Assembly (NCBI RefSeq): GCF_028369105.1
Contig: NZ_JAQNDO010000001.1
Location: 6,852,501 to 6,916,500 of the forward strand
Direction: 5' to 3'
Source of the DNA: Polyangium mundeleinium
Lineage (GTDB): Bacteria; Myxococcota_A; Polyangia; Polyangiales; Polyangiaceae
Length of the DNA stretch: 64,000 nucleotides
Shown piece after piece: positions 21,208 through 44,375 of this stretch. Position numbers and translations under genes: made by a program. Each line of letters begins with the position of its first letter. The first letter of the stretch is position 1. The notes under the pieces were generated by a model, which was given only the letters and a program-made list of their open reading frames with translations, searched no databases and was not told where the DNA came from.

Positions 21208-21388
21208 GTGGCTCTCTCGCCAGCGTACCGTGGGTTTCGTTGGGGGAGCCACGGGCGCGCGAGACGATTTTTTGCCCAATGGTGTGCTCGGGGCTCCTCG
21301 CTCTCGGGTTGCCGTCGTCGAGGGCGGACGCCACCGCGGCCCTGGGAGCCCCTGGCGTCGCGGCCCGTCCTCGGGTATTGCGATCCGC

Positions 21389-21931
21389 ATGCTCAACAAA
21401 CTGGTCGGCGTCGTGAACCGCGCGGTGTACGGCAAGGCCCCCGAAGGCGGGCCCACCTCCATGCAGGAGCTCTCGCTCCAAAGGCTCGACGGGGCGCCGC
21501 TCCCGCTCGAAGAGGTGGCGGGCAAGGTCGTGCTCTTCGTCAATGTCGCCAGCCGCTGCGGCCTCACGCCGCAGTACGAGGGGCTGGTGAAGCTGCACGA
21601 GCGTTACCACGATCGCGGGTTTCTCGTGGTGGGCGCGCCTTGCAACCAGTTCCTCGGGCAGGAGCCGGGCTCGGCCACGGAGATCGCGCAGTTCTGCTCC
21701 GCGACCTACGGCGTCGACTTTCCGCTCCTCGCCAAACAGGACGTGAACGGCGCGGAGCGCAGCCCGCTCTACCAGTGGCTCATCGGCAGCAAGGCGGGCG
21801 GCGGCTCGGACGTCTCCTGGAACTTCGAAAAGTTCCTCGTCGGCCGCGACGGCGCGGTCCTCGCGCGTTTCTCGCCGCGGGTAACGCCCGAGTCGCCCGA
21901 GGTCGTGCAGGCCATCGAAGCCGCGCTCTGA
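21389..21931 (+). CDS. glutathione peroxidase family protein
   Basis: A 180-residue thiol peroxidase with all family landmarks: GKVVLFVNVASRCGLTPQY containing the peroxidatic cysteine (Cys in place of Sec), APCNQFLGQEPG with the catalytic Gln, and WNFEKFLVGRDG with the catalytic Trp and Asn. It reduces hydroperoxides, most likely with thioredoxin as reductant as for other bacterial Cys-type members. The start at 21389 is set by family length; the frame is open further upstream only because of GC bias. It stands alone. Confidence 0.92.
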   Translation: MLNKLVGVVNRAVYGKAPEGGPTSMQELSLQRLDGAPLPLEEVAGKVVLFVNVASRCGLTPQYEGLVKLHERYHDRGFLVVGAPCNQFLGQEPGSATEIAQFCSATYGVDFPLLAKQDVNGAERSPLYQWLIGSKAGGGSDVSWNFEKFLVGRDGAVLARFSPRVTPESPEVVQAIEAAL

Positions 21932-22043: not shown

Positions 22044-22757
22044 ATGATGCCCGTGGAGAGGACCTCGACCTCGATCGTGTTCATCGAGGACGACGAGAAG
22101 CTCGCGCGCCTCACGGCGAGATACCTGGAATCCCACAACGTCCGCGTCACCCTCGCGACCGACGCGCGCGACGGGATCGCCGCCGTCCTGCGCGAGCACC
22201 CCGACGTCGTCCTGCTCGACCTCATGTTGCCCGAGATCGACGGCTTCGAGGTTTGCCAGCGGCTGCGCGCCCGCGTGCACACGCCGATCATCATGGTCAC
22301 CGCGCGCGGTGAAGAAGCCGACCGCGTCATGGGCCTCGAAGGCGGCGCGGACGACTACCTCCCCAAACCCTTTTCCGCACGCGAGCTGCTCGCGCGCATC
22401 CGGGCGCACGCGCGCCGCGCCCGCGGCCTCGCAGGCCCGCCGGCCGAGCGTCAGATCGTCGCCGGCTCCCTCACGATCGACCCCTGCGCGCGCAGGGCGG
22501 TCTTCGACGGGGCGGATCTCGCGCTCACGACCTACGAGTTCGATCTCTTGCATGCCCTCGCCGAGCGGGCCGGGCGTGTCCTCACGCGCGAGCAGCTCGT
22601 GGATCTCGTGCGGGGCAGCGCGGACGAGGCCTTTGATCGTTCGATCGACGTGCACGTCTCGCACCTCCGGAAGAAGCTCGGCGACGACCCGAAAAACCCG
22701 CGGATCATCAAGACCGTGCGCGGCATCGGGTATGTGTTCGCGGTCGATCGGATGTGA
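22044..22757 (+). CDS. OmpR/PhoB-family response regulator
   Basis: A 237-residue regulator. The receiver domain has the acidic pair in FIEDDEKL, the phospho-acceptor D59 in VVLLDLMLPEIDG, a conserved Thr in MVTARGEE and the Lys of YLPKPF. The C-terminal winged helix (about residues 135-235) includes LTTYEFDLLHALAERAGRV and HVSHLRKKLGDDPKNPRII with the recognition helix and TVRGIGYVF. It is followed after three bases by the sensor kinase. The GTTAA-type direct repeat upstream suggests it binds its own promoter and those of the neighbouring CotH genes. Confidence 0.93.
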   Translation: MMPVERTSTSIVFIEDDEKLARLTARYLESHNVRVTLATDARDGIAAVLREHPDVVLLDLMLPEIDGFEVCQRLRARVHTPIIMVTARGEEADRVMGLEGGADDYLPKPFSARELLARIRAHARRARGLAGPPAERQIVAGSLTIDPCARRAVFDGADLALTTYEFDLLHALAERAGRVLTREQLVDLVRGSADEAFDRSIDVHVSHLRKKLGDDPKNPRIIKTVRGIGYVFAVDRM

Positions 22758-22760
22758 GCC

Positions 22761-24125
22761 ATGGCCCTCCGGAACGTCCTGCGCGCACGCCTGGCCCTCC
22801 GCATTTACCTCGTGGGCCTCGCGCAGTTCGCGGTGGTCGCGGCCGGATTCATCACGCTCCTCGAAATCAACCGGCCCAAGGGGTTCCCCCACGAGCACGA
22901 GGTGCGCTTTCTTCACGAGATGATCGCGCGGGAGATCGACAACCCGCGCGAGCTCCAGCGGGTGCTCGATGTCACGCAGAACGAGCTCCACTCCACGGTC
23001 ACCGTGGTCGATCCGGACGGCGCCGTGTTCGCGACCAACGCGCCCGGCGCGCCGCGTTGCGCGCCGCTACGACTGAAGAAATTCCTCGAGGATAGGCCAC
23101 CGCCACCGCCTTGCCACGCGAGGCCCGTGCGGTTTCCCGATGGCCGCGAGGGGCGCATCGAGCAATTCGCCCCGCATCGGCCGCCAGGGCCACCCATCAC
23201 CGGGCCCCGCTTGATCACGATGGTCCTCGTGGTCGTGGGGATCTCGTCGTGGCTGCTCGCGCGTACACTCACGCGGCCGCTGCGTCGCCTCTCGACGGCC
23301 GCGCGCGCGTTCGGCGGCGGCGATTTGAAGGCCCGCGCCGCCCTGCCGAACCGCGACGAGCTCGGCGACGTGTCGCGCGCATTCGACGAGATGGCCGAGC
23401 GCGTGACCGAGCTTTTGCGGGCCGAGCGGGAGCTGCTCGCGAACGTCTCGCATGAGCTGCGCACGCCGCTCTCGCGGATTCGAATGGCCCTCGCGCTCGT
23501 CGCCGAGGCGGAGGGCGACGTCGCCGTCGCGCAGGAGATGCTCGGCGAGATTGGCGGGGATCTCGACGAGCTCGAGCGGCTCATCTCCGATGTGCTCACG
23601 GCCGCGCGGCTCGATTTCGAGGACGTGGCGTCGCACGCCGGCATTCCGCCGCTCCGCCGCGAGCGCGTGGACGTGCACGACTTGCTCACGCACGCGGCGT
23701 CGCGGTTTCGCGCGGCACACCCGCAGCGGACGTTGCGGGTCGACGTGCCGGCGGATTTGCCCTCGGTCGACGCGGATCCCGTGCTCCTGCGGCGGGTCTT
23801 CGACAACCTGCTCGAGAACGCCCACAAGTACACGGAGGAGCCGGCGGAGGCGGTCGAGCTCGTCGCGCGTGGGGGCGAGGACATCACGGTCGAGGTCGTC
23901 GACAAGGGCGTCGGGATCTCGGCGGAGGATCTGTCGCGCGTGTTTCGGCCGTTTTTCCGGGTCGACAGGAGCCGCACCCGCGCGACCGGGGGCCTCGGCT
24001 TGGGGCTGCCGCTCGCGAAGCGGATCATCGACGCGCACGGCGGCAAGATCGAGCTCGTGAGCACGCCGAACGAGGGGACCCGCGCACGTGTGCGTCTCCC
24101 GATCGCACATCTTTCGGCAGCTTAA
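22761..24125 (+). CDS. membrane sensor histidine kinase
   Basis: A 454-residue kinase with a first membrane helix at about 15-34, a periplasmic sensor of about 115 residues rich in Pro and His (DRPPPPPCHARP), a second helix at about 151-168 and a HAMP linker. The H-box is NVSHELRTPLSRIRM with H231. The ATP-binding domain shows NLLENAHKYT, DKGVGIS, RVFRPFFR and GGLGLGLPLAK. Pairing with the preceding regulator is clear from spacing. The signal is unknown; histidine-rich sensors sometimes detect metals, but this is only suggestive. Its stop codon overlaps the GTTAA-type box of the next gene. Confidence 0.93.
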   Translation: MALRNVLRARLALRIYLVGLAQFAVVAAGFITLLEINRPKGFPHEHEVRFLHEMIAREIDNPRELQRVLDVTQNELHSTVTVVDPDGAVFATNAPGAPRCAPLRLKKFLEDRPPPPPCHARPVRFPDGREGRIEQFAPHRPPGPPITGPRLITMVLVVVGISSWLLARTLTRPLRRLSTAARAFGGGDLKARAALPNRDELGDVSRAFDEMAERVTELLRAERELLANVSHELRTPLSRIRMALALVAEAEGDVAVAQEMLGEIGGDLDELERLISDVLTAARLDFEDVASHAGIPPLRRERVDVHDLLTHAASRFRAAHPQRTLRVDVPADLPSVDADPVLLRRVFDNLLENAHKYTEEPAEAVELVARGGEDITVEVVDKGVGISAEDLSRVFRPFFRVDRSRTRATGGLGLGLPLAKRIIDAHGGKIELVSTPNEGTRARVRLPIAHLSAA

Positions 24126-24137
24126 CACGCCGTTAAC
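24122..24137. promoter_or_regulatory. direct repeat TTAAC-n6-TTAAC, candidate regulator box
   Basis: TTAAC at 24122-24126 and again at 24133-24137, 11 bp apart and on one helical face. It overlaps the kinase stop codon and lies 23 bases before the CotH start, so CotH may have its own promoter in addition to read-through from the kinase gene. It is the most perfect of the four related boxes in the window. Confidence 0.5.
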
Positions 24138-24160
24138 AGGAACCTCGTATCCTCGCGGGC

Positions 24161-25291
24161 ATGCGATACCGTCTCGCCTCGATCCTCCTGTTTTCATCGG
24201 CCTTCACGGGGTGCACCGCCGAGGATCCCGTGGAGGCGGTCTTCGACCCTGCCAAACTTCACAAGGTCGAGATCACCGTCGCTTCCACGTATCTCGGCAC
24301 GCTCGCGAACGATCTCGACGAGCGCGTGCCTTGCGACATCGTCTACGACGGCGAGCTCGTCGCGGGATCCGGCATCCGGCAAAAGGGCAATACGCTCGTG
24401 GATCTCGACGACAAACCGAGCTTCTCCATCAAGTTCGACGAGTTCGACGACCAGGCCAAGCTCTACGGGCTCAACAAGCTCATCCTGAACAGCTCGAAGC
24501 AGGATCCCAGCTTTCTGCGCAGCCGGCTCGGCTCCGACGTGCACCTGCGCGCCGGTCTCCCCGCGGCGCGCGTCGCGCACGCCCAGGTGACGCTGAACGG
24601 CGTCGACAAGGGGATTTACGTGGTGGTCGAGGCCGTCGACAAGGACTTTCTCCGGAGCCACTTCGGCGAAGAGTTCGCCGAGGGCAACCTGTACGAAGGC
24701 CCGTGTTGCGGCGATTTCGTGGACGACATCGAGCACATGGAGCTCGAGGACGAGAAGAAGGACGGTAGGTCCCGGGACGATCTCCGCGCGCTCGCGCAGG
24801 TCATCCAGGACACGCCCGACGCCGAGTTCGCCACGGCGCTCGAAGAGCACCTCGATCTCGGGCAGTTCATGAAGATCTACGCCCTCGAAGCGCTGCTCGG
24901 CCACTGGGACGGCTTCGCGTTCCGAGCGAACAACCATTACATCTACAACAACCCCGCCACCGGGCGCTTCGTGTTCATGCCGCACGGGATGGATCGGATC
25001 CTGGACGATCCTTCGTTTGACCCCGAGACGACGCCCGTGACCAAGCTGCCGCTGCGGATCCGCGCGCTCACGGCGCTCGACATGGAGTTCCAGACGCAGC
25101 GCACCGAGCTCGCCCGGAACGCGTGGAACGAGACATCCATGCAGGCGGTGATCAACCAGGCAGCCGCGGTGCTCCACACGGCGGCCGCGGGCGAGCAGAC
25201 GAGCAAGGACCTCGCCGATTTCGACGAGGGCGTCACCGAGCTCCGCAACATCGTGACCGTACGCAGCGACAAGATCGCCCCCACGAACTGA
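24161..25291 (+). CDS. CotH-family kinase lipoprotein
   Basis: A 376-residue exported protein with a lipoprotein signal (FSSAFTGC). The CotH fold is indicated by KHVEITV-like start, GIRQKGNTLVDL with the P-loop-like part, KPSFSIKFDEF, KLILNSSKQDPSFLRSRLG, a VTLNGVDKGIYVVVEAVDKDFL segment, and the metal/catalytic stretch HGMDRILDD. CotH proteins are atypical Ser kinases that act outside the cytoplasm, known from spore coats and found widely beside VTC and DUF4956 genes. The next gene begins 14 bases after its stop and encodes a VTC-domain protein, so the two are co-transcribed. Confidence 0.85.
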   Translation: MRYRLASILLFSSAFTGCTAEDPVEAVFDPAKLHKVEITVASTYLGTLANDLDERVPCDIVYDGELVAGSGIRQKGNTLVDLDDKPSFSIKFDEFDDQAKLYGLNKLILNSSKQDPSFLRSRLGSDVHLRAGLPAARVAHAQVTLNGVDKGIYVVVEAVDKDFLRSHFGEEFAEGNLYEGPCCGDFVDDIEHMELEDEKKDGRSRDDLRALAQVIQDTPDAEFATALEEHLDLGQFMKIYALEALLGHWDGFAFRANNHYIYNNPATGRFVFMPHGMDRILDDPSFDPETTPVTKLPLRIRALTALDMEFQTQRTELARNAWNETSMQAVINQAAAVLHTAAAGEQTSKDLADFDEGVTELRNIVTVRSDKIAPTN

Positions 25292-25305
25292 ACGCGAGGC
25301 GCGCC

Positions 25306-26061
25306 GTGGACAACGTCATCGAGCGGTACGAATACAAATACCTGGTGCCGGAAGGGCTCGTGCCCGGCATCCGCGCCACGGCGCGCGCGACCTCCAAGAT
25401 CGACAAATACGCCGGGCCCGACGGGACCTACCGCATCCGCTCGCTGTACTTCGATACGGACCGCTACGACCTTTTCTGGGCGAACGAGCGGGAGCAAGCC
25501 GATCGATTCAAGCTCCGGGCGCGCTGTTATCCCGCGAGCACGGAGAGCCCCGTGTTTCTGGAGGTCAAGCGGCGCGTGCTCGACGTCATCGTCAAGACAC
25601 GCGCCGCCATCCCCGCAGCCGCATGGCGAGACGTCCTCGCCGGCAAGGAGTCCGCGCTCGCCGCGCTCTCCCCCGGCGCACGCTCAGGCGCCATGCGGTT
25701 TCTCGCGCCGTATCACCGGCACCACATCCGCCCGGTGCTGCTCGTCGAATACGAGCGCGAGGCCTACATCAGCGAGATCGACACCTACGCGCGGCTCACA
25801 TTCGACCGCAAGATCGCCGTGCAGCAGCAGGAATCGATCGATCTCGAAGCCGTCCCGGGGCGGTGGCGCCCCATCGATCACCGTGCACAGACGCGGACCC
25901 AGGAGCCAGTATGCGTGCTCGAGCTCAAATTCGAGCGGCGCCCCCCGCGCTGGATGGTCGCCCTCGTCCAGCGCCTCGACCTGATCCGATTTTCCTTCTC
26001 AAAGTATTGTTACGGCGTGACCGCAGAGCTGACGCTCCCGGAAGCACGGATTCCCGGCTGA
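25306..26061 (+). CDS. VTC-domain protein (polyphosphate polymerase-like)
   Basis: A 251-residue cytoplasmic protein with the VTC catalytic-tunnel pattern: ERYEYKYLVPEGL at the start, YRIRSLYFDTDRYDLF, DRFKLRARCY, VFLEVKRRV, RPVLLVEYEREAY, RLTFDRKI and VLELKFERRPPRW. The Arg/Lys/Glu residues lining a triphosphate-tunnel fold are therefore present. Eukaryotic VTC4 makes polyphosphate from ATP; the bacterial relatives are commonly found with CotH and DUF4956 genes, with an unproven role. The start is a GTG at 25306 with GAGG seven bases upstream. A 300-bp dispersed repeat follows. Confidence 0.85.
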   Translation: MDNVIERYEYKYLVPEGLVPGIRATARATSKIDKYAGPDGTYRIRSLYFDTDRYDLFWANEREQADRFKLRARCYPASTESPVFLEVKRRVLDVIVKTRAAIPAAAWRDVLAGKESALAALSPGARSGAMRFLAPYHRHHIRPVLLVEYEREAYISEIDTYARLTFDRKIAVQQQESIDLEAVPGRWRPIDHRAQTRTQEPVCVLELKFERRPPRWMVALVQRLDLIRFSFSKYCYGVTAELTLPEARIPG

Positions 26062-26077
26062 GGATGGAGGCGCCGCG

Positions 26078-26381
26078 CTGGGGCGTTGCCCCAGGCCCCA
26101 GCAGGGGCTGTCCGCCCCTGCACCCGGACCAGCCAGGGGCTGGACCCAAGTTCGATGAACTGCGCTCCGCGCAGTTCATCGAACAGGCCCGGTGAAGACC
26201 GGCAGCAACCCTGCCAACCGAGCCAGCCGCGCTGCGGGGTCGGCTGGCAACCCGGGTTCTTCGTCGGCCTGTTTGAAAAACTGCGCGGAGCGCAGTTCTT
26301 CCACCTTCGGTCCAGGCCGTGCCTGGTCCGGGTCGAGGGGCGGATAGCCCCCGCGGGGCCCGGGGCAGAGCCCCGGCGCGA
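26078..26381. repeat. dispersed palindromic element, copy A
   Basis: About 300 bp that begin with the inverted pair GGGGCGTTGCCCC and end in GGGGCAGAGCCCC, with two internal hairpins. Hairpin 1 at 26151-26183 has a 15-bp stem with core ACTGCGC-TCC-GCGCAGT. Hairpin 2 at 26275-26301 has the same core with different flanks. Left and right halves are rough inverted copies of each other. Related copies lie at 36659-36922, 40859-41090 and 44060-44366, with a fragment at 39680-39722. No gene is inside. Confidence 0.85.
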
Positions 26382-26407
26382 CGCCCCCCGAAGCCCCCAC
26401 GCTCAGG

Positions 26408-27841
26408 TCACGGCGCGCTGCGGGAGACGCCCGCTGGGAGGCGGCCGCCGACGGCGCGGCGGAGCTCGGAGACGGCTGTGCGATAGCGGCGTATGAGGGC
26501 GAGGAGGCGGAGTTCGACTTTGACGCGTTGTGCGTCGACGGAGAGGGCTTCGATCACGTCGACGTTGCGACCTTCGAGGGCTCGTTTGGATGCGGATCCT
26601 GCTTGCGCGGCGGCGGGGAGTGCGCGGGATCGGAATGCGGTGACGAGCTCGCTCGAGACTTCGGCTTCGCGCAGGCGGGCGCGTACTTCGCGGGCGACTT
26701 GCTCGACTTCGGCGGCGAGTGCGCGCTGTGACGAGTTCTTCGCTGCGCCTGCGGCGGCTGTGCCTGCGCGGTTTGTGTCGAAGATGGGCAGCTCCACGCC
26801 GGCTGCGAATGTCCAGGCGAGGCCTGTCAGCGTGCCTGGCGTGGGGAGCGTGCCCGGCGTGAATTGGTACCCGAGCTCGACGAACGAGAACCACGGAAAA
26901 CGGCGTGCGCGCTCGGCGTATGCGCGTGCGTCGGCCGCGTCGATCCGCGCGGCTGCGATGGCGACCTCGGGCCTGCGCCGGAGTGCCTCTTCGATGAGCG
27001 CCTGCTCCGAAGGCAGCGCTGGGGGCGGCCATGCGAGTGGCGGCTCGCCGACGACCTCCACGGATGCCCCGGGTTCGAGCCCGATGCGATCGAGCAATTC
27101 GCCGAGCACCTCGCGCCGGTGCGCCTGTTGCTCGGCCAGATCGGATTCGGCCTCCACGGCCGCGAGTTCGGCCATCGTCTCGTCGATCGACGTCGCTTCC
27201 GCTGCGGCGACGCGGGTCTTCATTTGTGACGCGAGGGCCCTTCGCGCCTCGGCGACGGCTTGGGCCGCGGCGATTTCGGCGTCGATCAAGGCGACGTCGT
27301 CGAAGAGCCAGCGGACGTCGGCTTCGATCGTGATCGCCTCGGCGCGCGCCTCCGCCTGCGCCTCCGCTTGCTCTGCGCGCGCCTCCGCGACCTCTGCGTC
27401 CACCTCGCCCGGCCGGTCTGGCGAGAAACGGAGCGCGGTGCGGATCCGCGGCTCGCCCTCGACGAATTGATCGAGGCGCATTTGGGTGATACGAAGCTCC
27501 GGGTTTGTGTGCCGATTCGCTGCGGCGACCTCCGCTTCGGCCGTGGTCGCGGAGGCTTCGAGCGCGGCGAGCTGCGCGCTGTTTTTCTTCGCCAGGGCGA
27601 CCGCGTCTTCCACGGTGAGCACGCGCGGCGCCGCATCGGACGTGCTCGCCGCGCGCGCCGCCGCGCCTCGGCGGACGGATTCGTCGCGCCGCACGGTGAG
27701 CGCTCCTCGGGGCCCGAGGCTCTCGCGATACATGGCAATCGCGCGCTCGGAGCCCGAGAGTTGCAGCGAAGGGGAGCAACCTGCGAGAGCCGGGAGCAGC
27801 GCTGCGGGGAGCAGGGCTGCGTACCTTTTCAGCGCGCCCAC
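26408..27841 (-). CDS. TolC-like outer-membrane efflux lipoprotein
   Basis: A 477-residue protein with a lipoprotein signal (ALLPALAGC) and the duplicated helical pattern of outer-membrane efflux proteins (OEP). Signs are VLTVEDAVALAKKNSAQLAALEA, NPELRITQM, long Ala/Glu-rich coiled-coil helices and a second-repeat segment SEQALIEEALRRRPEVAIAAARIDAADA. The GTG at 27841 is chosen because the signal follows; it overlaps the upstream HlyD/DUF3616 gene by 13 bases. With that gene it would give a periplasm-spanning channel, though no pump gene (RND, ABC or MFS) lies in the operon. Confidence 0.82.
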   Translation of the reverse strand: MGALKRYAALLPAALLPALAGCSPSLQLSGSERAIAMYRESLGPRGALTVRRDESVRRGAAARAASTSDAAPRVLTVEDAVALAKKNSAQLAALEASATTAEAEVAAANRHTNPELRITQMRLDQFVEGEPRIRTALRFSPDRPGEVDAEVAEARAEQAEAQAEARAEAITIEADVRWLFDDVALIDAEIAAAQAVAEARRALASQMKTRVAAAEATSIDETMAELAAVEAESDLAEQQAHRREVLGELLDRIGLEPGASVEVVGEPPLAWPPPALPSEQALIEEALRRRPEVAIAAARIDAADARAYAERARRFPWFSFVELGYQFTPGTLPTPGTLTGLAWTFAAGVELPIFDTNRAGTAAAGAAKNSSQRALAAEVEQVAREVRARLREAEVSSELVTAFRSRALPAAAQAGSASKRALEGRNVDVIEALSVDAQRVKVELRLLALIRRYRTAVSELRRAVGGRLPAGVSRSAP

Positions 27842-29853
27842 GGCACCTCCTCGAACGACGGGACGCCACTGCCCGTGTCGAAGACGACCATGAGCTTGCC
27901 CGCGGAGAGCGACGGCGCGACGCCCTCCGGCTTGAGCCCCGGAAACCGCTTCACGAGGAGCGGCGTGAGCGCTCCGGGGGCCGGGGATTCGACGCGCCAG
28001 AGCGCGCCCGCGTCGCCGTCCGCCGTCGAAGGCGTGGACGTGATCACGAGGCTGCCGTCGGGCAAAAACAACAGATCGGAAATGCCGCCTGGCGTGGGTT
28101 TGCCCGCGAGCTCCACGTCGACAGGGACGCGCGCCCATAACGAGGCGCCGGCGCTCGCGAGGGGCTTCGACGCGAAGAGCGCGCTCGGCGTCGTGACCTG
28201 CCAGATCATGGCATGGCCTTGCGCATCGAGAGGAGCTTTGAGGCCAAAATAAAGGGCGCCTTTCTGGTAGGCGAGCCCCTCGATGTCGAGCGCGCGTGTG
28301 CCCTTCGGGAGCCCGAGCGCCGCGGCCTGCGCGGGGTCCGCGTCGAGCAGCTCCGCGAGATGGGCCTCTCCGTCGACGCGGAAGCCTCGCCCGTCCTTCC
28401 GAAGGCGCAAGAGCGCCGTCCGCGCGGGCTTGCGTTTTCCTCGCTTGCTGTAGCTCTGCGACGACAGGAGGTAGATCTCGCCCGCATCCCCGGCGGCAAT
28501 GGCCTCGACGTCCGAGATCTCGTCAATGCCGTCCACCTGCAAAGGCTCCGGCTCGATCACGCCGTCCTTGGACATGCCAAAAACCCAGGGCGCGCCCTCC
28601 GTGTCCTGCTGGCCCGTATCGTCGCTGACGACGAGATAACGCCCTTCGGCCTCCCGCGCGAGGATCCCGGACGGCTCGAATCGCGTCCGCTTCGAGAGCG
28701 CGTCCGGGAGCTTCATCGGGAGCACGCTCGCCGGCAGGTTGTTTGCCGTCGCCGCCGGAGGCGCCGGGCTTGCCAGCGGCGCCGAGGCCGGCTCGAAGAC
28801 GACATCAAAGGCTTGCCCCGCGATCACGTCGAGGGGGGCGTCGAGCTCGACCGTGATTTCGCGGCCCCACATGGGAATTTTGGGCGAAACCCAGCAACGC
28901 GCGGGCAACTCCGCCACGAGCGGGCCGAGCGCGACGGTTTTTCCTCGCAGCGCGCCGCCCTGCTGCCCTCGAATCCACAGTTTCGCGCCGTCCCCCTCGC
29001 GCACGCCGAGGGACACACGCTCCGGGACGCACGTGACCACACGCGCGCCCCCGCGCACGATGCTGAGCACCGGATCCCCGGCCACGGCGACCTCGCCGGG
29101 CTGCTTCCAGATCGTCGCCACGCGCCCGCGCCGCGTCGCGCGGAGCACGTACCCCGCGCGCCTTTGCTTCAAGAGCTCGATGCTCCGCTCGGCAAAACGC
29201 ACGTCCGCGGCGAGTTTGTCCGCGGTCGCCGAGCCTTCTTGTTTTGCTGCCTTGCGCCGCGCCTCGGCCGTCTGGATCTGCTTCGCCAGGAGCTTCAATG
29301 TCCGCGGCTTCTCCGCGGCGAGCGCGGCGGCCGCGGCGTGTTGCAGGTCGACCTTGGCGAGCTCCTCGAAGACCACCTGTCGGTCCTCCACGAGCTGCTT
29401 CACCCGCGCCATTTCGCCATCGAGCACCTTCGCCTCGGCGGACACCTGGAGGTGCTCCTCGCGTTGCCGCGCCGCCTCGCGCTCGAGGGACGCGAGGTCC
29501 GCGTCGAGCTTTTGCAGGATCTCGGACTCCGAGGCGCGCACGTCCGCTTCGAGCCGCGTCTTCTCGGCCTCCGCGACGGCGATCTCGGCGTCGATCGCGG
29601 AGGTGTCGAGCTCCGCGACGATCTGCCCCGGCGTGACCTCGTCGCCGACACGCACGTGGACCGCCGCGACCTTGGCGATCTCGGTCGGCGCGATGGCCTC
29701 CGGCGTCGCCTCGGCGAACCCCACGACGTGCCCGCGCGCGCCGTCGCCGAAGTGCAGCCCCGCCGCGGCGCCGAGCGTGCCCACGAGGCAAAGCCCGGGC
29801 GCGAATCGCTGGAGGGCCGCTTGCATTCGATGGAGGGTCTTCGTCGATTTCAT
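27829..29853 (-). CDS. HlyD-type adaptor fused to a DUF3616-like domain
   Basis: A 674-residue protein with an N-terminal signal anchor (residues 15-35). Residues about 40-360 form a membrane-fusion adaptor: a lipoyl half-motif (VAAVHVRVGDEVTPGQIVAELD), a long coiled coil, the second half (GYVLRATRRGRVATIWKQPGEVAVAGDPV) and a beta-barrel part. After a Pro/Ala linker, residues about 390-674 show SGILAREAEGRYLVVSDDT, ISDVEAIAAGDAGEIYLLSS and LDIEGLAYQKGALYFGLKAP, the pattern of DUF3616, a beta-propeller-like domain. I know of no common fusion of these two. It overlaps the TolC-like gene and sits two bases from the DUF4956 gene. Confidence 0.78.
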   Translation of the reverse strand: MKSTKTLHRMQAALQRFAPGLCLVGTLGAAAGLHFGDGARGHVVGFAEATPEAIAPTEIAKVAAVHVRVGDEVTPGQIVAELDTSAIDAEIAVAEAEKTRLEADVRASESEILQKLDADLASLEREAARQREEHLQVSAEAKVLDGEMARVKQLVEDRQVVFEELAKVDLQHAAAAALAAEKPRTLKLLAKQIQTAEARRKAAKQEGSATADKLAADVRFAERSIELLKQRRAGYVLRATRRGRVATIWKQPGEVAVAGDPVLSIVRGGARVVTCVPERVSLGVREGDGAKLWIRGQQGGALRGKTVALGPLVAELPARCWVSPKIPMWGREITVELDAPLDVIAGQAFDVVFEPASAPLASPAPPAATANNLPASVLPMKLPDALSKRTRFEPSGILAREAEGRYLVVSDDTGQQDTEGAPWVFGMSKDGVIEPEPLQVDGIDEISDVEAIAAGDAGEIYLLSSQSYSKRGKRKPARTALLRLRKDGRGFRVDGEAHLAELLDADPAQAAALGLPKGTRALDIEGLAYQKGALYFGLKAPLDAQGHAMIWQVTTPSALFASKPLASAGASLWARVPVDVELAGKPTPGGISDLLFLPDGSLVITSTPSTADGDAGALWRVESPAPGALTPLLVKRFPGLKPEGVAPSLSAGKLMVVFDTGSGVPSFEEVPWAR

Positions 29854-29855
29854 GG

Positions 29856-30536
29856 CTACAGATCCAGCGTCGGCTCCTGCAGCAGCAAGGCGACGTCCTG
29901 CACCCCCGGAATGGCCTTCAGATTCGAGACGAGCGGCCCGCGCAGATCCGGCGCGCGGACGCTGATCTGGTACGCGTGCTCCATGATCGTCCCTTGCGCC
30001 GCCTCGCGCAGCGTGACGAGCGCGAAGGACCGGCAATGCGATCGCAGGATCTTCATGATGGCCTCCTCCGCCTCGGGCCCGGCGGGCGCGGCGAAGCGGA
30101 GGAGTCCGTCGGGCTGATGGCGCGCGCCATACCCGGTGAAATGAAGCAGCACGAATCCGATCGCGAAGATGATCGTGCCCAGGATCGCCGCGCCGTGGGC
30201 CTGCGCGCCGCTCGCCATCCCCACGCCCAGGGCCGCGAAGATGAAGATGATGTCGCGCGGATCCCGGAGCGACGTGCGGAACCGGACCGCCGAGAGCCCC
30301 CCCGCCATGCCGATGCCCGCGGCGATGCTACTGCCCACCGCGAGCATCAACATGCACGTGATCACGCTGCCCATGGCCATTCCGTGCACCGTGGACCGCG
30401 AGTACGAGAGGCCCCGGAAGGTCGCCATGTAAACGACCGCGATGGCCTGGCCGAGCCCAAAGGCGAGCAAGAGGGAGATGAGCGCCTTGCGCCATTCGAA
30501 TGCGTCCCCCTGGGTCAGCGGTTCAAGCCATTCCAT
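29856..30536 (-). CDS. DUF4956 integral membrane protein
   Basis: A 226-residue protein with four to five hydrophobic helices in the first 140 residues (LLLAFGLGQAIAVVYMA, VITCMLMLAVGSSIAAGIGMA, GTIIFAIGFVLLHF). The conserved GGLSAVRFRTSLRDPRDIIFIF of DUF4956 is followed by a cytosolic ACT-like C-terminal domain (ALVTLREAAQGTIMEHAYQIS, NLKAIPGVQDVALL). The family almost always neighbours VTC and CotH genes, as here, and is thought to form a membrane partner for the VTC catalytic domain. It lies between CotH and HlyD in a tight minus-strand operon. Confidence 0.88.
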   Translation of the reverse strand: MEWLEPLTQGDAFEWRKALISLLLAFGLGQAIAVVYMATFRGLSYSRSTVHGMAMGSVITCMLMLAVGSSIAAGIGMAGGLSAVRFRTSLRDPRDIIFIFAALGVGMASGAQAHGAAILGTIIFAIGFVLLHFTGYGARHQPDGLLRFAAPAGPEAEEAIMKILRSHCRSFALVTLREAAQGTIMEHAYQISVRAPDLRGPLVSNLKAIPGVQDVALLLQEPTLDL

Positions 30537-30583
30537 CGGCAGCGTGTTCCTCGTGGCAAGCGTTGGCGAGAGGTCCTATGCGA

Positions 30584-32218
30584 TCACGGTCCGAGGAACG
30601 TGGCCACGTCGGCCGGGCGCTCCTTCGCGTGGGCGATCACCCCGGCGAGGCCCTCGTCGAATGCGGCAGGCGACGCGAGGAACGTATACCCCGGCTGCTC
30701 GCCCTCCGCGCCGACGACGTAGGGCGCGATGAGGTCGTGGGCGGCCTTGAACCGCGCTTCCATGCCCGCGGCCTCGTAGTCCTTCTCGACCGCGAGTGCG
30801 ACGTAGCCGCGATATTTCTCGAGGTACACCGGATCGTCGAGCAGGTACCGGATGAGCGGCCATTGCTCGGTGATCTCGGACATCGCGAGCGACATGGCCT
30901 GCCCGCCGAACCCTCCGCCCGACGAGGCGGGGAACGCGAAGCTGTGGTCCCAGGGGATCCACGTGAATTGCGCGTCCTTCTTCGGATCGGCGTACATGTA
31001 GTAATTGTGCGGCATGCGGCCGTACTGGTCCCAATCCTCGATCACTGCGTTCAGCGCGAGCCAATGGAGGAACCCATCGACGTCGAGCCGGGCTTCGAGG
31101 CCGGCGCGCCAGGCGGCGGCGTCGGTCTTGTCGGCGTGCAGCGCGTCGAAGAGCGCCTGCGCGTCCGAAAAATCGGCCTCGTCCTCGTTGTTTTCCTTCC
31201 CGAGCGTTTCGGTGTCCAAGGTCTGCCAGCGCGCGCCTGCGCCGTCGGGCTTGTACAGGTTGCCCTTGTGGCCGCCGAAATGCGTATCCATGAACGATTC
31301 GTCCGAGGGCAGCTCGATCCCCGTGTACAGCCCGAAATACTTCACGCCCTCACCGTGATCGATGAACACGCGGTAAAACGCGGTCGCGGGCGCCGGGATC
31401 CCCGCGTTCACGAAGACCTCGGTGCCGATCTTGTCGCGCATGAGCGACGCATCGCTCGCGGAGTTCGAGAAACTCAGCGCGTCGAAGCCGTAGAACCGCT
31501 GGTTCTTCGTCTCCGGATAGGTGTCCTCGTACTTGTCCCAGTTGAAGCGCAGCGGCAGCTTCCAGACGCCCCCCTGCCAGCTCATGGCCAGGCTCGAATT
31601 GCCCTTGAAGCGGATCCCGACGTGCTGCCAGCTCCGATCCTCGGTCTTGACGTCACACTCGACGTAAATGGGCGTGCGGGGGAGCAGGTCGACGCCCCCT
31701 TCGCCGCCCGGTCCGCCGGGCCCGCCGGGGCCGCCCGGGCCGCCGGCCGGGAAGCAAAGCAGGCTGCCCATGGCATCCGTGCACGTCCCCTGGGACTCGA
31801 CGCCATTGAGCGTGACCGTGCACGCATCCCCGGCCGCGAGCCCATTGCAAGCCTCGGCGAGCTCCGGCGGTAGCCCGCCCGGCCCCCCCGGCCCGCCCAT
31901 GCCCATGCCTTCGCCGAACGTGCCGAGCATGTCGGTCATGTCGGCGACCATCGCCGCCCAGTTCTCGGGCGAGATGGTGATGTCGATGCGGGGAACCCGA
32001 TCTTGCGGGAAGGCGGCCGCATAATCGGGATCCTCCGATCCGCTGCCGCCCTCGCCGCCGTTTCCACCGCCGCCCTCGCCGCCGCTGCCGCCCGCGCCGC
32101 CGCTGCCTCCCGCGCCCGCGCCCGTCTCGGTGCTGGGATCACTTCCGCCGCACCCCTGGATCGCAAGGGCCGCCAGCGCCGCGAACGGCAGAACACAATG
32201 CAGGAACCGCATTCTCAT
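30584..32218 (-). CDS. second CotH-family kinase lipoprotein
   Basis: A 544-residue lipoprotein (lipobox ALAIQGC) with a Gly/Ser/Glu linker, then a CotH domain: PRIDITISPENWAAMVADM, HVGIRFKGNSSLAMSWQ, KLPLRFNWDKYEDTYPETK, RFYGFDALSFSNSASDASLMRDKIG, YRVFIDHGEGVKYFGLYTGIE, and the catalytic/metal stretch TWIPWDHSFAF. Insertions rich in Gly-Pro (MGGPGGPGGLPPE, GGPGGPGGPGG) are collagen-like loops unusual for the family. ATG at 32218 is preferred over the GTG at 32224 because GGGGAG is placed six bases upstream. It leads the operon with DUF4956, HlyD/DUF3616 and TolC. Confidence 0.85.
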   Translation of the reverse strand: MRMRFLHCVLPFAALAALAIQGCGGSDPSTETGAGAGGSGGAGGSGGEGGGGNGGEGGSGSEDPDYAAAFPQDRVPRIDITISPENWAAMVADMTDMLGTFGEGMGMGGPGGPGGLPPELAEACNGLAAGDACTVTLNGVESQGTCTDAMGSLLCFPAGGPGGPGGPGGPGGEGGVDLLPRTPIYVECDVKTEDRSWQHVGIRFKGNSSLAMSWQGGVWKLPLRFNWDKYEDTYPETKNQRFYGFDALSFSNSASDASLMRDKIGTEVFVNAGIPAPATAFYRVFIDHGEGVKYFGLYTGIELPSDESFMDTHFGGHKGNLYKPDGAGARWQTLDTETLGKENNEDEADFSDAQALFDALHADKTDAAAWRAGLEARLDVDGFLHWLALNAVIEDWDQYGRMPHNYYMYADPKKDAQFTWIPWDHSFAFPASSGGGFGGQAMSLAMSEITEQWPLIRYLLDDPVYLEKYRGYVALAVEKDYEAAGMEARFKAAHDLIAPYVVGAEGEQPGYTFLASPAAFDEGLAGVIAHAKERPADVATFLGP

Positions 32219-32275
32219 CGTCACTCCCCAAGTTCAAGGTTCGAGTGGACTCTATGTCGGGACTGCGGCGCAGGT

Positions 32276-32301
32276 GTTACAGGATCGTGTGCGATTGTTA
32301 A
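32276..32301. promoter_or_regulatory. GTTAC/GTTAA pair, candidate regulator site
   Basis: GTTAC at 32276 and GTTAA at 32297, 21 bp apart (two helical turns), in the promoter region of the second CotH gene. It is less regular than the 11-bp pairs at 21988 and 24122. Taken alone it would be weak; it is listed because of its placement before another CotH gene. Confidence 0.35.
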
Positions 32302-32337
32302 GCGGGCGAATCACGCGGGCGTCGGGAACGTCGCCGC

Positions 32338-34386
32338 TCACTCGCTCCCGCGGCCGGGGTAGGGGCGGGCTTGCTTGATGTAGAGCGTGGGCGTCTGGCC
32401 AGGGGCGGCCTCGTCGTCGAACTTGAACTCGATATCCATCGCATACCAGCCCTTGTTCCCCGCGGCCGGCCCATACGCGGGGGAGAAGCGCGCATGGATG
32501 GCGTCGAGGGCCACGCCGAGCGAATGGATCTGCGCCGTCGTGAGGACACGCTCGCCCTCCGCCAGCAAGCTCGAATGCGTCAGGTACGTGATCGGCTGGT
32601 TCGGCTGCGTGAAGTAATAGAGAAACTGGTCGCTGGTCACGCCGGGCGGCGGGGCCACGACCTCCACGTCGCCGCCGTACTGGACGTTCACGTAGAACGC
32701 GGGATCGACCCCCGCTTCGTCGAACGGATTCGCCGTGACGGCCACGCCGTTCGCCTCCTCGTCCGGGAAGTTGTGGTGCACGAGCAGGGCCATCCCGATC
32801 GATTTGTGATCGATGCCGTAATAGCTGCGCTCCTCGAACGTGCGGAAGAGCCAGGCGCTCGCGTAGGTCTCGCGAATGGCGTCGAGCACGTCGGCCCAGT
32901 CCGTGGGGTCTCCCGTATGCGACTCGTAGCAGCCGGCGCAGGGGAACCCTTCGAGATCCTCGCTGTTCGTGCTCGTGCGGAAGCGCATCTTGTGCGTCCC
33001 GTAGTCGGCCGCGATCTTGTCCTTCAGCAACGTCTGGAACGCGGCGTCGACGGGAGCCGCCTCCATCGCCTTGCGCAGGTCCTTGAGCTTCTGATCCCGG
33101 ACGGCCGCGTCGGCCTGGAACGTCGAATCCGCGAGCAGCGCGTCGATCTGGTCGTAGAACCCGTTCTGCTGCATGAACTGGTCGTAGTAATGGACCGGGA
33201 TCGCGAAGGCCTTCTGGATCGGGACGTTCTCGGTCCGCGTGAGGATCGAGTAATGCGCCGCCTTCCCGCCGAACGCGAGCACCGATTTTTTGATGGCGTC
33301 GCGCAGCGAGCCGCCGGCCGCCGGCTCGGGCGTCACGTCCTCGAGGTCCCACAGGCCCGTGACCGAGAGATCAAGCGTCGGGAGCACGACGGGCTCGGGC
33401 TTGTGCGCGTCCCAGAAGGCTTGCGCCTCTTCGAGCGTGACCTCGCGGACGCTCCACGTGGAGGAGCCCACCGTGAGCTCGACCAATTTGCCTTCGAGGG
33501 CCCGCAGCGCGGGATTCGTCATCGCATGACGTAGCCCCATGTTCGGCGTGCCTCGATTCTGCGAGAGCACATTGACGTGAGAGAGCGGCGTCTGGAATTC
33601 TTCCGTCACGAGGCCCTGGATGACCGAGATGTCGTTCGGCGCCTCGTCGAGGACCACGATGTCCTCGTGGGAGACGTATTCGTCCTCGAGATCCGCGGCC
33701 TTCAGGAAGCGGAGCCGCCCCATGGCCGAGCCGAGCGAGAGGGGCTGGTAATCGATGGCCGCATAAAGCTCGTCCGTGGTCTTCACGGGGACGTCGGCGC
33801 CGAGCTTGTCGGCCTCCACGGTCACCGCGTCCGACGTCGGGTGGAAGAACAGGCTCCCGCCGAAATAGGCCGACGCCGCGACCTTCTTGTAGAGCGTCGT
33901 GATCATGGCCGCCGACGCCGTGTCGTACGGGGCGATTTCGAGCGCCCATACCTTCGGGCCTTCGTAGTAGGTCACGGCACCGAGCAGGAAGCGGCGGTCG
34001 GGCGTGTAGTACTCGGTCGCGTTGAAGCTCGACAGCTCGGGCACGAGCGGGAGGTCATTGCCCGAGAGGTGCTTCGAGGCGAACTCGTAATGGATCTTGT
34101 AGAGGACGCTGTTCTGGAAGTAGAGCGCATTGCCGTCCGCCTGGTCCAGGACGACCTTGACCGAGCGCGCGCCCGGCAGATCGGCGCGCAGGGGCTCCGA
34201 GGCGAGGGCCTGAAAATCCCCGTTGCAGCCGATCGTCTGCAAGAAGTCCGGGGATTCGCTGCCGCTCGGGAGCTGGCATTCGAACACGGGGCCCGCGGGC
34301 GCCGCCGTGTCGCTGCATGCCATCGGCATCGCGGCGACGGACAAAACGAGACCCAGCGCCGTGACGGCGCGTTTGTGCAAGGACAT
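32338..34386 (-). CDS. lipoprotein with permuted PEP-synthase domains (swivel then ATP-binding)
   Basis: A 682-residue lipoprotein (signal ending SVAAMPMAC). At about residues 270-290, EEFQTPLSHVNVLSQNRGTP matches the phosphohistidine swivel of PEP-utilising enzymes (T-x-L-S-H and the following GTPN). Further on, SVLAFGGKAAHYSIL, RFRTSTNSEDLEGF and a final YIKQARPYP match the PPDK_N ATP-binding domain. In PEP synthase and PPDK the ATP-binding part comes first, so the order here is reversed. The protein is predicted outside the cytoplasm, where ATP and PEP are not normally available. ATG at 34386 is used with GGAGG six bases upstream. It lies between CotH and an endostatin-like protein. Confidence 0.78.
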   Translation of the reverse strand: MSLHKRAVTALGLVLSVAAMPMACSDTAAPAGPVFECQLPSGSESPDFLQTIGCNGDFQALASEPLRADLPGARSVKVVLDQADGNALYFQNSVLYKIHYEFASKHLSGNDLPLVPELSSFNATEYYTPDRRFLLGAVTYYEGPKVWALEIAPYDTASAAMITTLYKKVAASAYFGGSLFFHPTSDAVTVEADKLGADVPVKTTDELYAAIDYQPLSLGSAMGRLRFLKAADLEDEYVSHEDIVVLDEAPNDISVIQGLVTEEFQTPLSHVNVLSQNRGTPNMGLRHAMTNPALRALEGKLVELTVGSSTWSVREVTLEEAQAFWDAHKPEPVVLPTLDLSVTGLWDLEDVTPEPAAGGSLRDAIKKSVLAFGGKAAHYSILTRTENVPIQKAFAIPVHYYDQFMQQNGFYDQIDALLADSTFQADAAVRDQKLKDLRKAMEAAPVDAAFQTLLKDKIAADYGTHKMRFRTSTNSEDLEGFPCAGCYESHTGDPTDWADVLDAIRETYASAWLFRTFEERSYYGIDHKSIGMALLVHHNFPDEEANGVAVTANPFDEAGVDPAFYVNVQYGGDVEVVAPPPGVTSDQFLYYFTQPNQPITYLTHSSLLAEGERVLTTAQIHSLGVALDAIHARFSPAYGPAAGNKGWYAMDIEFKFDDEAAPGQTPTLYIKQARPYPGRGSE

Positions 34387-34425
34387 GTTTTCCTCCAAAG
34401 AAAGCCGAAGTCGAGCCTGCAGCGT

Positions 34426-35409
34426 TCAGGGGACCAGCGAGAAGCAATAGAAGCCGCCGTACCCGCCGCCGGAGCCGACGGTGACCGAGCCCGGCTGGGG
34501 TCCGCCCATTTCGATGAGGTTCACACCCGGCGCGCAGCCAGATTCATTGAGCGAGGACATCCAGTTCGCGGCGCTTCCATCGCCGCCGCCCGGTCCGCCG
34601 CCGCCGCCGCCGCCGAACCGCGGCCACGAATGCCCCACGCGCGGCCGGCCTTCGCTCGCCAGATCCCCGAGGTTGCTCGTCCAGTCCTTGCACGTCGCGG
34701 TCGCGCTGAAGAGCGCGCCCTCGTCGTTCGTCCCGGTGAGCATGTCGTGGTTGTCGACCTGCGGCTGGTTCGGATCCGGCTGGTGGTTCGGGACGCCGTC
34801 CTCGTTCGGGAAATCATTGATGATGGCCGCGTCGGCCCCCGCGGGGCGCTCCTTCAGGAGATCGGTCTTGTTCGCCGCGAGCAATCGCCCGAGCCGGTCG
34901 TACCAGGGGCCTTCCCCGATACGATCCCGCGCGTTGACCTGCTGGCCGTCCTCGCCGGCCGTGGCGCTCAAAAAGGCGCGCCACGGCTTTTGCCCCGCGC
35001 CCGGCATGCTCGTTTCGGCGATCGTCGCGCAGATCTTGTCCGCGCCGCGCAGCCCCGCGCCCGCGCCCGTCTCGCCGAAGCGGAGGTCGCCGCCAAACCC
35101 CTCCGGGTTGCCCGAGAGCTCCTGCAACGCACGGAGGCTCGTCACGAAAAAGCTGAACTTTTCCGTCGTGCCGCCGCCTGCGCCCGCGTCGCCGCCGCTC
35201 CCGCCATTGCCGCCCCCATTGCCGCCCGAGCCTTCGCCGCCCGTACCGCCCGTGCCGGCCGAGCCGCCGCTTCCCCCCGACGCGGAGGACGAGCTGCTCC
35301 CGGAGCCGCCGTTCCCGAGCCCGAGATCCCCATTGCTGCTGCCGCAACCCATGACAAACGAGAGCACCACGCCGCCCAAGAGGGGCAGCGCAAATCGGTG
35401 TGCGTTCAT
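34426..35409 (-). CDS. exported NC10/endostatin-like (DUF1554-type) lipoprotein
   Basis: A 327-residue lipoprotein (LSFVMGC) with a long Gly/Ser linker to about residue 80. The following domain has the order seen in DUF1554/collagen-NC10-like C-type-lectin folds: FFVTSLRALQELSG, GLRGADKICATIAET, KPWRAFLSAT, NARDRIGEGPWYDRLGRLLA, MLTGTNDEGALF, CKDWTSN and a Cys near the end (FYCFSLVP). Such domains are probably ligand-binding. It lies 39 bases upstream of the PEP-synthase-like lipoprotein gene, same strand. Confidence 0.7.
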   Translation of the reverse strand: MNAHRFALPLLGGVVLSFVMGCGSSNGDLGLGNGGSGSSSSSASGGSGGSAGTGGTGGEGSGGNGGGNGGSGGDAGAGGGTTEKFSFFVTSLRALQELSGNPEGFGGDLRFGETGAGAGLRGADKICATIAETSMPGAGQKPWRAFLSATAGEDGQQVNARDRIGEGPWYDRLGRLLAANKTDLLKERPAGADAAIINDFPNEDGVPNHQPDPNQPQVDNHDMLTGTNDEGALFSATATCKDWTSNLGDLASEGRPRVGHSWPRFGGGGGGGPGGGDGSAANWMSSLNESGCAPGVNLIEMGGPQPGSVTVGSGGGYGGFYCFSLVP

Positions 35410-35486
35410 GACAAGCTCCTTTCTAGAGCCCGCTGGATTCGTCCCAGCTCCTTCCTCGGATGCGCGGCATCCAGAGGGAATTCATT

Positions 35487-36497
35487 TCATTTGCAGGTGA
35501 GATCCGCCTGGCAGACCTGACCGTTCGGGCAATCGACGTCGCTGAAGCAGGACGTGAGCCCCGGGATCTGCACAGCCTCTTCGAGCGACGAGGAGACGAC
35601 GAGGTCGATGCGCCCCTCCTTGATGGTCGCCCCGCCCGTCGTTTTTCGAACGACGACAATCGAAGGGAACCCCGCGACGCCGAGATCGAGGAGTTTTCCC
35701 ACGAGCGCCGCAGAAATCTCCAGAGAACCCGTGTCGTCCGCGTCGCACTCGATCATGCCCTTCGTGCCGCCGTGGTGGCTGATGTCGAGTTTTACGTAGA
35801 TACGAGAGCTACCGGCCTTCGCGGGCGGGGTCCAGGTGAGCGCGATGGGTTTGCCGGATTCGAGCGTGAGCGTCTCGCCGGCGAGCACGAGCGGGGCGAT
35901 GCCGGTGCCTTCGAGCGTGAAGGAGCTGTAGTAATCGCCGCTCGCCTGGAACGTGAGCGCCTCCCCCTCGGCAAACGCAGGGAAGGGGAGCTTGACGCTC
36001 GCAGGAGGCTGATAAGCATTCACCACGGGATCCATGCTGAAGCCATCGTCGCCGGATTCGGTGTGCAGGCCCTTGACCGTGATTTTCCCCGCGCTGTGCG
36101 CGATCGGGTACGCCTGGCAGGTGTCGTCCTCCACGCAGGCAGCGCTTCCTCCACAAGGCGTGCTGCAAAAAGGAACCCGCGGCGTGGAGAGCTTGCAAGC
36201 GCCCTCCTTGGCAGCCTCCTCCCATATCACCTGCGAAGGCGTGGGCCCGTCATACACCTTGCCAAGCACCGCCGTGCTCCCCGGCGTCGCCGGCGTATTG
36301 TCGGTCGCGGGGACGGGCGGGACGAGGCGCACCTGGAAGGCGCCGATAAGGATGGAGGAGTCACCAGGCTCCGCATCCGGCGGCGCGCCGCCTCCACCGC
36401 CCTGGCCGCCGCTCCCATCCGGGGTTTCGCCGGAGGTCGAGCAGGCGACGAGAGGCAAACAAATCAGCCCAGCGAGGGTGCGAGCGGCCCGCCGCAT
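35487..36497 (-). CDS. hypothetical lipoprotein of the CotH cluster
   Basis: A 336-residue lipoprotein (signal ending ICLPLVAC) with a Gly-rich linker and two beta-rich domains; cysteine pairs occur at FCSTPCGGSAACVEDDTC and at the C-terminal CFSDVDCPNGQVCQADLTC, a small disulfide knot common in myxobacterial surface proteins. I do not recognise the central domain (EALTFQASGDYYSSFTLEG, PIALTWTPPAKAG). ATGs at 36548 and 36566 are open in frame, but the signal peptide begins at 36497. A GTTAA-type pair lies 96 bases upstream. Confidence 0.7.
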   Translation of the reverse strand: MRRAARTLAGLICLPLVACSTSGETPDGSGGQGGGGGAPPDAEPGDSSILIGAFQVRLVPPVPATDNTPATPGSTAVLGKVYDGPTPSQVIWEEAAKEGACKLSTPRVPFCSTPCGGSAACVEDDTCQAYPIAHSAGKITVKGLHTESGDDGFSMDPVVNAYQPPASVKLPFPAFAEGEALTFQASGDYYSSFTLEGTGIAPLVLAGETLTLESGKPIALTWTPPAKAGSSRIYVKLDISHHGGTKGMIECDADDTGSLEISAALVGKLLDLGVAGFPSIVVVRKTTGGATIKEGRIDLVVSSSLEEAVQIPGLTSCFSDVDCPNGQVCQADLTCK

Positions 36498-36609: not shown

Positions 36610-36658
36610 CGTCGCGTGGTAACAGCAGTGCCCAGCATTGGTTCCCATTGAAGTCGTT

Positions 36659-44366: not shown

Positions 44367-44375
44367 CGGCCTCAA

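Follow-up and report, generated by a model that had tools for sequence, protein, structure and literature searches.

The window analysed here, a stretch of 64,000 nucleotides from Polyangium mundeleinium and part of a 13.25-Mb genome in two contigs, carries at positions 22044–36497 eleven genes for a two-component system, two CotH-family kinases, a VTC-domain protein, a DUF4956 membrane protein, an HlyD-type adaptor, a TolC/OEP-type outer-membrane channel and three further lipoproteins. We report that VTC, DUF4956 and HlyD form a compact cassette that recurs across the Myxococcota and is very probably a real functional unit. Judged from sequence, there is about an even chance that the locus is that of a polyphosphate synthase-exporter spanning the envelope, to which surface kinases are attached. 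This proposal draws on conserved catalytic residues, on the missing pump gene and on a contrast between cell envelopes: the Gram-positive CotH-VTC-DUF4956 triad beside pel would need no outer channel, whereas the two-membrane cassette includes an adaptor and, in many loci, a channel. The locus makes it testable how a bacterium could place polyphosphate outside the cell and where extracytoplasmic CotH kinases obtain phosphate, and the cassette provides a short list of candidate genes for that question.

A conserved VTC-DUF4956-HlyD cassette in Myxococcota

To avoid selecting loci by their dikinase gene, 235 genomes of the phylum were searched for VTC, which was present in 106. One locus each was sampled from 60 of these 106 genomes, nearly in score order down to E 2.9e-30; second copies, the weaker-scoring half and genomes G230, G158, G243, G167 and G239 were left out, while G000, G012, G041, G049 and G054 were examined separately. 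The 60 loci were annotated with profiles built from earlier loci. On the strand of VTC, DUF4956 is found at most 1.5 kb away in 55/60 loci, and HlyD within 6 kb in 52 (50 without two weak matches of 21 and 26 bits). The order VTC-DUF4956-HlyD, with or without more genes, was found in 48 loci, and in three others the order is rotated, with DUF4956 first and VTC last, but the linkage is kept. VTC-DUF4956 alone occurs in six loci, VTC alone in two and HlyD-VTC-DUF4956 in one. The HlyD-linked loci span 18 of the 23 sampled families. A conservation analysis of the gene set had been proposed by an earlier sequence-only reading of this DNA, and the independent distribution that it had named as speaking against a joint system did not appear.

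Measured between profile envelopes, the median gap is 111 nt from VTC to DUF4956 (n = 55, largest 221) and 129 nt from DUF4956 to HlyD (n = 50, two above 300, largest 518), which leaves no room for a pump gene in between. Within 5 kb of the 52 HlyD-linked loci, an ABC-ATPase-like open reading frame (ORF) was seen in eight and an ORF with at least eight hydrophobic stretches in nine, while 38 had neither. Pfam gave no MFS, ABC or RND pump among the eleven genes of the window locus.

Other components accompany the core less regularly. In the 60 VTC loci the phytase-like domain was found in 21, OEP by profile in 18, CotH in 14 (up to 10 kb away and on either strand), the dikinase in two, X36 in two and DUF1554 in none. 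In loci lacking an OEP match, a Pfam scan of ten downstream genes returned two OEP (L288, and L268 just under the cut-off), one Porin_O_P (L248), one weak ExbD and one photolyase-related match; five had no match. An alignment of the L268, L247, L253 and L255 proteins matched the OEP alignment (hhalign probability 98, E 2e-13). An outer-membrane partner thus adjoins 25 of the 52 HlyD-linked loci, 18 by profile, five with OEP or OEP-like proteins (L247, L253, L255, L268, L288) and two of porin type.

The two porin-type cases belong to one genus and have the phosphate-selective porin family PF07396 directly after HlyD (L248:3-1325, minus strand; G145:C17:33651-34448, a match with one internal stop), where other loci have OEP. 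A phosphate porin as the general third part was rejected, as PF07396 stands right after HlyD in only two (G240, G145) of 30 genomes searched; weaker matches lie on the same contig, within about 7 kb of VTC, in G151, G269 and G241.

We observe three layers, namely the VTC-DUF4956-HlyD core cassette, a lipoprotein module and CotH. Their combination varies. One genome (G036) has a single collinear block CotH2-DUF4956-HlyD-OEP-CotH1-VTC; in a second (G023), X36-DUF1554-dikinase-DUF4956-HlyD-OEP-CotH1 and VTC-DUF4956 lie on separate contigs; in a third (G033), where the contig end truncates VTC, the order is VTC-DUF4956-HlyD-phytase-like-X36-DUF1554-dikinase-OEP. The fetched Polyangium loci share the window's convergent layout, while the gene set is spread wider. 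The sequence-only reading had seen the trans-envelope parts and the phosphohistidine lipoprotein as additions to a CotH-VTC-DUF4956 set; the former indeed go with the VTC-DUF4956 core, but the dikinase lies near VTC in only 2/60 loci and CotH in only 14/60. Overall, that reading, of a system that would make or move a phosphate-rich polymer and phosphorylate surface proteins, is supported in part.

The VTC protein keeps the active-tunnel residues of Vtc4

The VTC gene (25306–26061, plus strand; proposed GTG start, the frame being open upstream) matches PF09359 with 141.2 bits (cut-off 23), and the protein, predicted to be a cytoplasmic polyphosphate polymerase, matches yeast Vtc4 structures. 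With residue numbering from position 25288, R77, R79 and E212 align with Vtc4 R264, R266 and E426, numbered via the full-length chain 8i6v. These are the residues that were changed to inactivate the yeast complex (PMC9911596); here and below, statements from cited papers refer to the excerpts available to us. Among 15 aligned VTC sequences 18 positions are invariant, including R77 and E212, and R79 is present in at least 90%. Pfam lists the VTC domain alone, without the SPX and C-terminal membrane domains of Vtc4, and the 257-aa protein has no hydrophobic stretch over the threshold. From these sequence features, it is rather probable that the VTC protein is a polyphosphate polymerase.

DUF4956, the adaptor and the outer-membrane channel

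DUF4956 (29856–30536, minus strand; PF16316, 40.0 bits, cut-off 30.6) has several hydrophobic stretches and is the proposed inner-membrane passage. Residues R85, R87, R94 and D95 are conserved among 87 sequences. The Streptococcus intermedius homologue is described as having four transmembrane segments and a cytoplasmic ACT domain (PMC12345266).

The adaptor gene (27829–29853, minus strand) encodes in one protein an HlyD/EmrA-like part (HlyD_3, 25.9 bits, cut-off 22.2) and a C-terminal phytase-like domain (28.5 bits, cut-off 27.6), the latter an addition to the list of the sequence-only reading. The structure model (pLDDT 84.8, pTM 0.49) has a predicted N-terminal helix, a pair of helices each about 72 residues long and a C-terminal part rich in beta structure, and its best match in the PDB is EmrA (4tko, E 9.4e-17). 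The phytase-like domain is absent from the best 50 rows of this fold search, and its nature rests on Pfam. In L138, L154 and L196 neighbouring genes encode the adaptor and the phytase-like domain separately, so the protein of the window fuses parts that are linked in any case. The channel gene (26408–27841, minus strand; PF02321, 84.5 bits, cut-off 22) has a proposed GTG start and overlaps the HlyD gene by 13 nt.

CotH kinases

Both CotH proteins are predicted lipoproteins. CotH2 (30584–32218, minus strand; PF08757, 179.9 bits, cut-off 23.8) has counterparts of both catalytic aspartates of Bacillus CotH, D228 and D251, whose change inactivates that kinase (PMC7821199). CotH1 (24161–25291, plus strand; PF08757, 125.7 bits, same cut-off; signal peptide and Cys by eye) keeps the first (D250), while the second is replaced in the alignment, with PHGMD in place of PWD. 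PHGMD also occurs in the CotH1 orthologs of L102, L132 and L136; CotH1 is possibly a pseudokinase or has a variant active site.

A dikinase-like lipoprotein and its conserved partners

The third putative kinase (32338–34386, minus strand) is a dikinase-like lipoprotein with an N-terminal domain, a phosphohistidine swivel domain and an ATP-grasp domain (PPDK_N, 86.7 bits, cut-off 27). Pfam gives PPDK_N only, with no match for the swivel domain. In the structure model (pLDDT 85.3), residues 341–682 match rifampin phosphotransferase (5hv1, Z 29.6) and PEP synthase (2ols, Z 28.0), and residues 212–332 match Enzyme I and the pyruvate-kinase C-domain with Z 10–11; the N-terminal domain (about 40–210) is barely covered by the fold search. 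The protein ends after the ATP-grasp domain, and a PEP/pyruvate-binding barrel was not detected. His270, Lys375, Arg470, Gln672 and Arg674 are invariant among 42 sequences, taken from part of the 80 dikinase loci described below without L204 (stop in the chosen frame) and L125. The "PEP-synthase-like domains" of the sequence-only reading hence correspond to ATP-grasp plus swivel, and its phosphohistidine lipoprotein is supported by the fold matches and the invariant His270.

Two lipoprotein genes accompany the dikinase. The DUF1554-like lipoprotein (34426–35409, minus strand) scores below the cut-off of PF07588 (21.3 vs 27.5 bits, E 2.6e-4). The Cys-rich lipoprotein X36 (35487–36497, minus strand) has no Pfam family, with a weak Myxo_Cys_RPT match of 18.5 vs 25 bits. 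When GTDB contigs were scanned with the dikinase alignment, 528 relatives were found. Near the best 80 of these lie X36 (65), DUF1554 (49), VTC (28), DUF4956 (28), HlyD (18), CotH (17) and OEP (12). VTC or DUF4956 is near 33 of the 80, and 17 of the 18 HlyD-bearing loci are among these 33. The best 80 come from Myxococcota, Fibrobacter, Fibrobacteres, a Chitinispirillaceae and a Phycisphaerae metagenome-assembled genome. DUF4956, HlyD, the phytase-like domain and VTC stand beside the dikinase in both the Chitinispirillaceae locus (L196; OEP below the cut-off, 17.3 vs 22) and a Fibrobacteres locus (L201; the ORF at the OEP position has no Pfam match).

As controls we used 20 paralogous dikinase loci from the relatives (28–40% identity, several shorter than 18 kb), none of which contains VTC, DUF4956, CotH, X36 or DUF1554. 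Among ortholog loci of at least 18 kb outside Polyangium, VTC or DUF4956 occurs in 17/34 vs 0/20 controls (P 5e-5), and vs 0/12 when only control loci in VTC- or DUF4956-bearing genomes are counted (P 0.0015). X36 is present in 30 of these 34 loci, the X36 and DUF1554 profiles being derived from ortholog loci. With broadened profiles, 4/20 control loci, all of them from Polyangium genomes, contained an HlyD and OEP pair within about 10 kb; by itself such a pair is thus not rare. The dikinase, DUF1554 and X36 are frequently joined to the cassette but not obligatory, and the dikinase as an obligatory part was rejected on its presence near just two VTC-centred loci.

A wider dikinase-like family, 28–40% identical, lies outside the cluster (L212–L231). 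Lamin-tail-domain (PF00932) proteins were seen beside the cassette or the lipoprotein module at L173:7454-8041, L196:20898-21887 and L201:16982-18562 and are possible surface partners.

Layout of the locus

The gene list of the sequence-only reading was reproduced with Pfam. The eleven genes form two convergent blocks, four genes on the plus strand (response regulator, histidine kinase, CotH1, VTC) and seven on the minus strand, in the order of transcription X36, DUF1554-like, dikinase lipoprotein, CotH2, DUF4956, HlyD with phytase-like domain, and OEP. Within the blocks the spacing ranges from the HlyD/OEP overlap to 119 nt (dikinase to CotH2). By eye, a signal peptide and a lipobox-like Cys are recognisable at the start of CotH1, CotH2, the dikinase, DUF1554, X36 and OEP.

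The regulatory pair consists of an OmpR-type response regulator (22044–22757, plus strand; Response_reg 99.6 bits, Trans_reg_C 96.9 bits) and, 3 nt after it, a HAMP/HisKA sensor histidine kinase (22761–24125, plus strand; HATPase_c, HAMP and HisKA over the cut-off). The cluster had been described as lying around one two-component system. The pair is present, but phmmer detects it beside the cluster solely in Polyangium loci, and it was rejected as a conserved part.

An intergenic element, palindromic and up to 344 nt long, lies at 26062–26405, 36655–36912 and 44051–44371 and has 87 matches in the genome, with many sites matched on both strands. Two copies flank the minus-strand block. An inversion of this block via the flanking repeats is unsupported; L104 and L106 have the same convergent order, with the VTC and OEP frames ending about 10 nt apart, so the element is not needed for the convergent layout. 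At 18529–21567 (minus strand), a frame of 1012 amino acids without a Pfam match has features of a secreted protein, a stretch rich in Gly and Ser, and a C-terminal tail that contains Cys and that we take to resemble a myxobacterial surface-sorting tail.

Co-occurrence at the genome level

The two CotH matches of the genome are both in the locus, as are its sole VTC and sole DUF4956. In a set of 59 genomes, its own included, VTC was found in 19, DUF4956 in 18 (17 over the cut-off) and CotH in 19; VTC and DUF4956 share 16 genomes, VTC and CotH 17, DUF4956 and CotH 14, and 14 have all three. The Fisher tests (1.2e-9, 9.6e-11 and 1.7e-6, uncorrected for relatedness) support the co-occurrence of the three families assumed in the sequence-only reading. 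Among 14 control genomes, both VTC and DUF4956 have matches in Bacteroides ihuae, Corynebacterium glutamicum and Methanosarcina acetivorans only, and CotH matches C. glutamicum, M. acetivorans and Bacillus subtilis. CotH, VTC and DUF4956 stand together in the window and in the loci of nine relatives (L102, L104, L106, L107, L110, L111, L112, L115, L116).

PelG (PF16933), the only Pel protein sought here and below, has no match in the window genome or in the genomes of these nine loci. Its single occurrence among the 59 genomes (G024) is in a genome without VTC, DUF4956 or CotH match. A Pel accessory locus was rejected on the missing PelG match.

PPK1 is encoded elsewhere in the window genome. 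VTC is commoner in genomes without PPK1 (6/9 vs 13/50, P 0.025, uncorrected), which fits a polyphosphate enzyme but a storage role too. The VTC-positive relatives without a PPK1 match are G011, G012, G014, G031, G045 and G057, in which VTC possibly replaces PPK1.

Discussion

We propose that the cytoplasmic VTC protein would build polyphosphate from the gamma-phosphates of ATP at the opening of an oligomer of DUF4956, and that the growing chain would drive the polymer through DUF4956, which would occupy the usual place of the pump in a tripartite exporter. The EmrA-like adaptor would dock on DUF4956 and, together with the TolC-like protein, extend the path to the surface, while its phytase-like domain may hold or trim the polymer. 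At the cell surface, CotH1, CotH2 and the dikinase lipoprotein may act as kinases, perhaps with the DUF1554 and X36 lipoproteins or a glycan as their targets. For export via DUF4956, HlyD and the channel, the chances appear evenly balanced. In its boldest form, exported polyphosphate and not ATP would be the phosphoryl donor of the surface CotH kinases and the dikinase lipoprotein; this form is quite improbable.

Several observations weigh against the export proposal. HlyD is lacking nearby in 8/60 VTC loci, and no HlyD match was found near the lower-scoring VTC-DUF4956 of G041, G049, G050 and G054. An adjacent outer-membrane partner was seen in just 25 of the 52 HlyD-linked loci, and the listed long downstream ORFs of six loci of one family (f37) look like other proteins. 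CotH and the dikinase are inconstant neighbours of VTC, and the adaptor could serve an unlinked pump. The fold class of VTC also includes triphosphatases. In S. intermedius, deletions of DUF4956 and of CotH alter Pel or aggregation, and the excerpt reports no such effect for a VTC deletion (PMC12345266).

In one alternative, VTC, DUF4956 and CotH are accessories of an exopolysaccharide, tuning or phosphorylating a matrix polysaccharide, and the HlyD-OEP pair works with an unlinked pump in the export of a glycan or glycolipid. The triad adjoins pel in streptococci, clostridia and bifidobacteria, and the CotH or DUF4956 deletions in S. intermedius shift Pel amount or aggregation (PMC7112168, PMC12345266); the adaptor also has a weak match to the DevB model of ABC-exporter adaptors (39 bits, far under the cut-off of 129). 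On the other hand, PelG occurs in 1/59 genomes, in one that itself lacks a triad match, and Pfam gives no polysaccharide synthase among the eleven genes. We regard this alternative as rather unlikely. Slightly less probable still is that polyphosphate is kept in the periplasm or cytoplasm for storage or stress and that the HlyD-OEP genes serve another cargo. The enrichment of VTC in genomes without PPK1 would suit a storage substitute, some VTC-DUF4956 pairs lack HlyD, and sampled loci are often without a recognised outer channel. However, the window genome also encodes PPK1, so that storage alone gives no need for VTC, and HlyD directly follows DUF4956 in 48/60 loci and comes after it in the three rotated ones too.

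Chance neighbourhood in a large, paralogue-rich genome is already disfavoured by the linkage and appears highly improbable. Large myxobacterial genomes do contain many lipoproteins and kinases, and repeat elements flank the minus-strand block, but the linkage repeats over many families, and VTC or DUF4956 is found in 33 of the best 80 dikinase-centred loci, whereas the 20 paralogous dikinase loci have neither these nor CotH, X36 or DUF1554.

Comparison with known systems

No published report of a VTC-DUF4956 cassette with HlyD was found among the open-licence PMC papers searched. VTC in eukaryotes is treated in PMC10657179, and for the yeast complex (Vtc4 with Vtc1/Vtc3) the published mechanism couples synthesis to membrane passage (PMC9911596). 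The VTC domain studied here keeps the Vtc4 active-tunnel residues, but the protein has no SPX or membrane domain, its membrane partner is DUF4956, and an envelope adaptor and an outer channel are added. With EmrAB-TolC and MacAB-TolC the locus shares an adaptor whose predicted fold is closest to EmrA and an adjoining OEP gene. It differs in that the cassette has no pump gene, with DUF4956 and VTC in its place, and in the phytase-like domain on the adaptor.

PEP synthase, PPDK and rifampin phosphotransferase share with the dikinase-like protein the ATP-grasp and phosphohistidine swivel domains, whereas the latter is a predicted lipoprotein without a detected PEP-binding barrel in which, as in glucan, water dikinase, the His domain comes before the ATP-grasp domain. 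The Bacillus spore-coat kinase CotH belongs to the same family, PF08757, with both catalytic Asp kept in CotH2 and the first in CotH1; the proteins of the window differ as predicted Gram-negative lipoproteins, and CotH1 deviates at the second Asp. The source of ATP for CotH in the spore coat is described as an unanswered question (PMC7821199).

The closest precedent is the Gram-positive pel locus, beside which lie the genes for CotH, a polyphosphate polymerase and DUF4956 (PMC7112168); VTC and CotH genes are listed in one Clostridium perfringens locus (PMC2879425). According to the excerpt of PMC12345266, a search by its authors for the three genes as a set without Pel was unsuccessful. Unlike that statement, the triad described here stands outside a Pel context by the PelG search. 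The same three families are together, but the genome has no PelG match and has two CotH genes; HlyD, OEP and the dikinase module are added, and the host has two membranes. This places the pel-associated CotH-VTC-DUF4956 triad in bacteria with two membranes, where it has its own envelope-spanning components.

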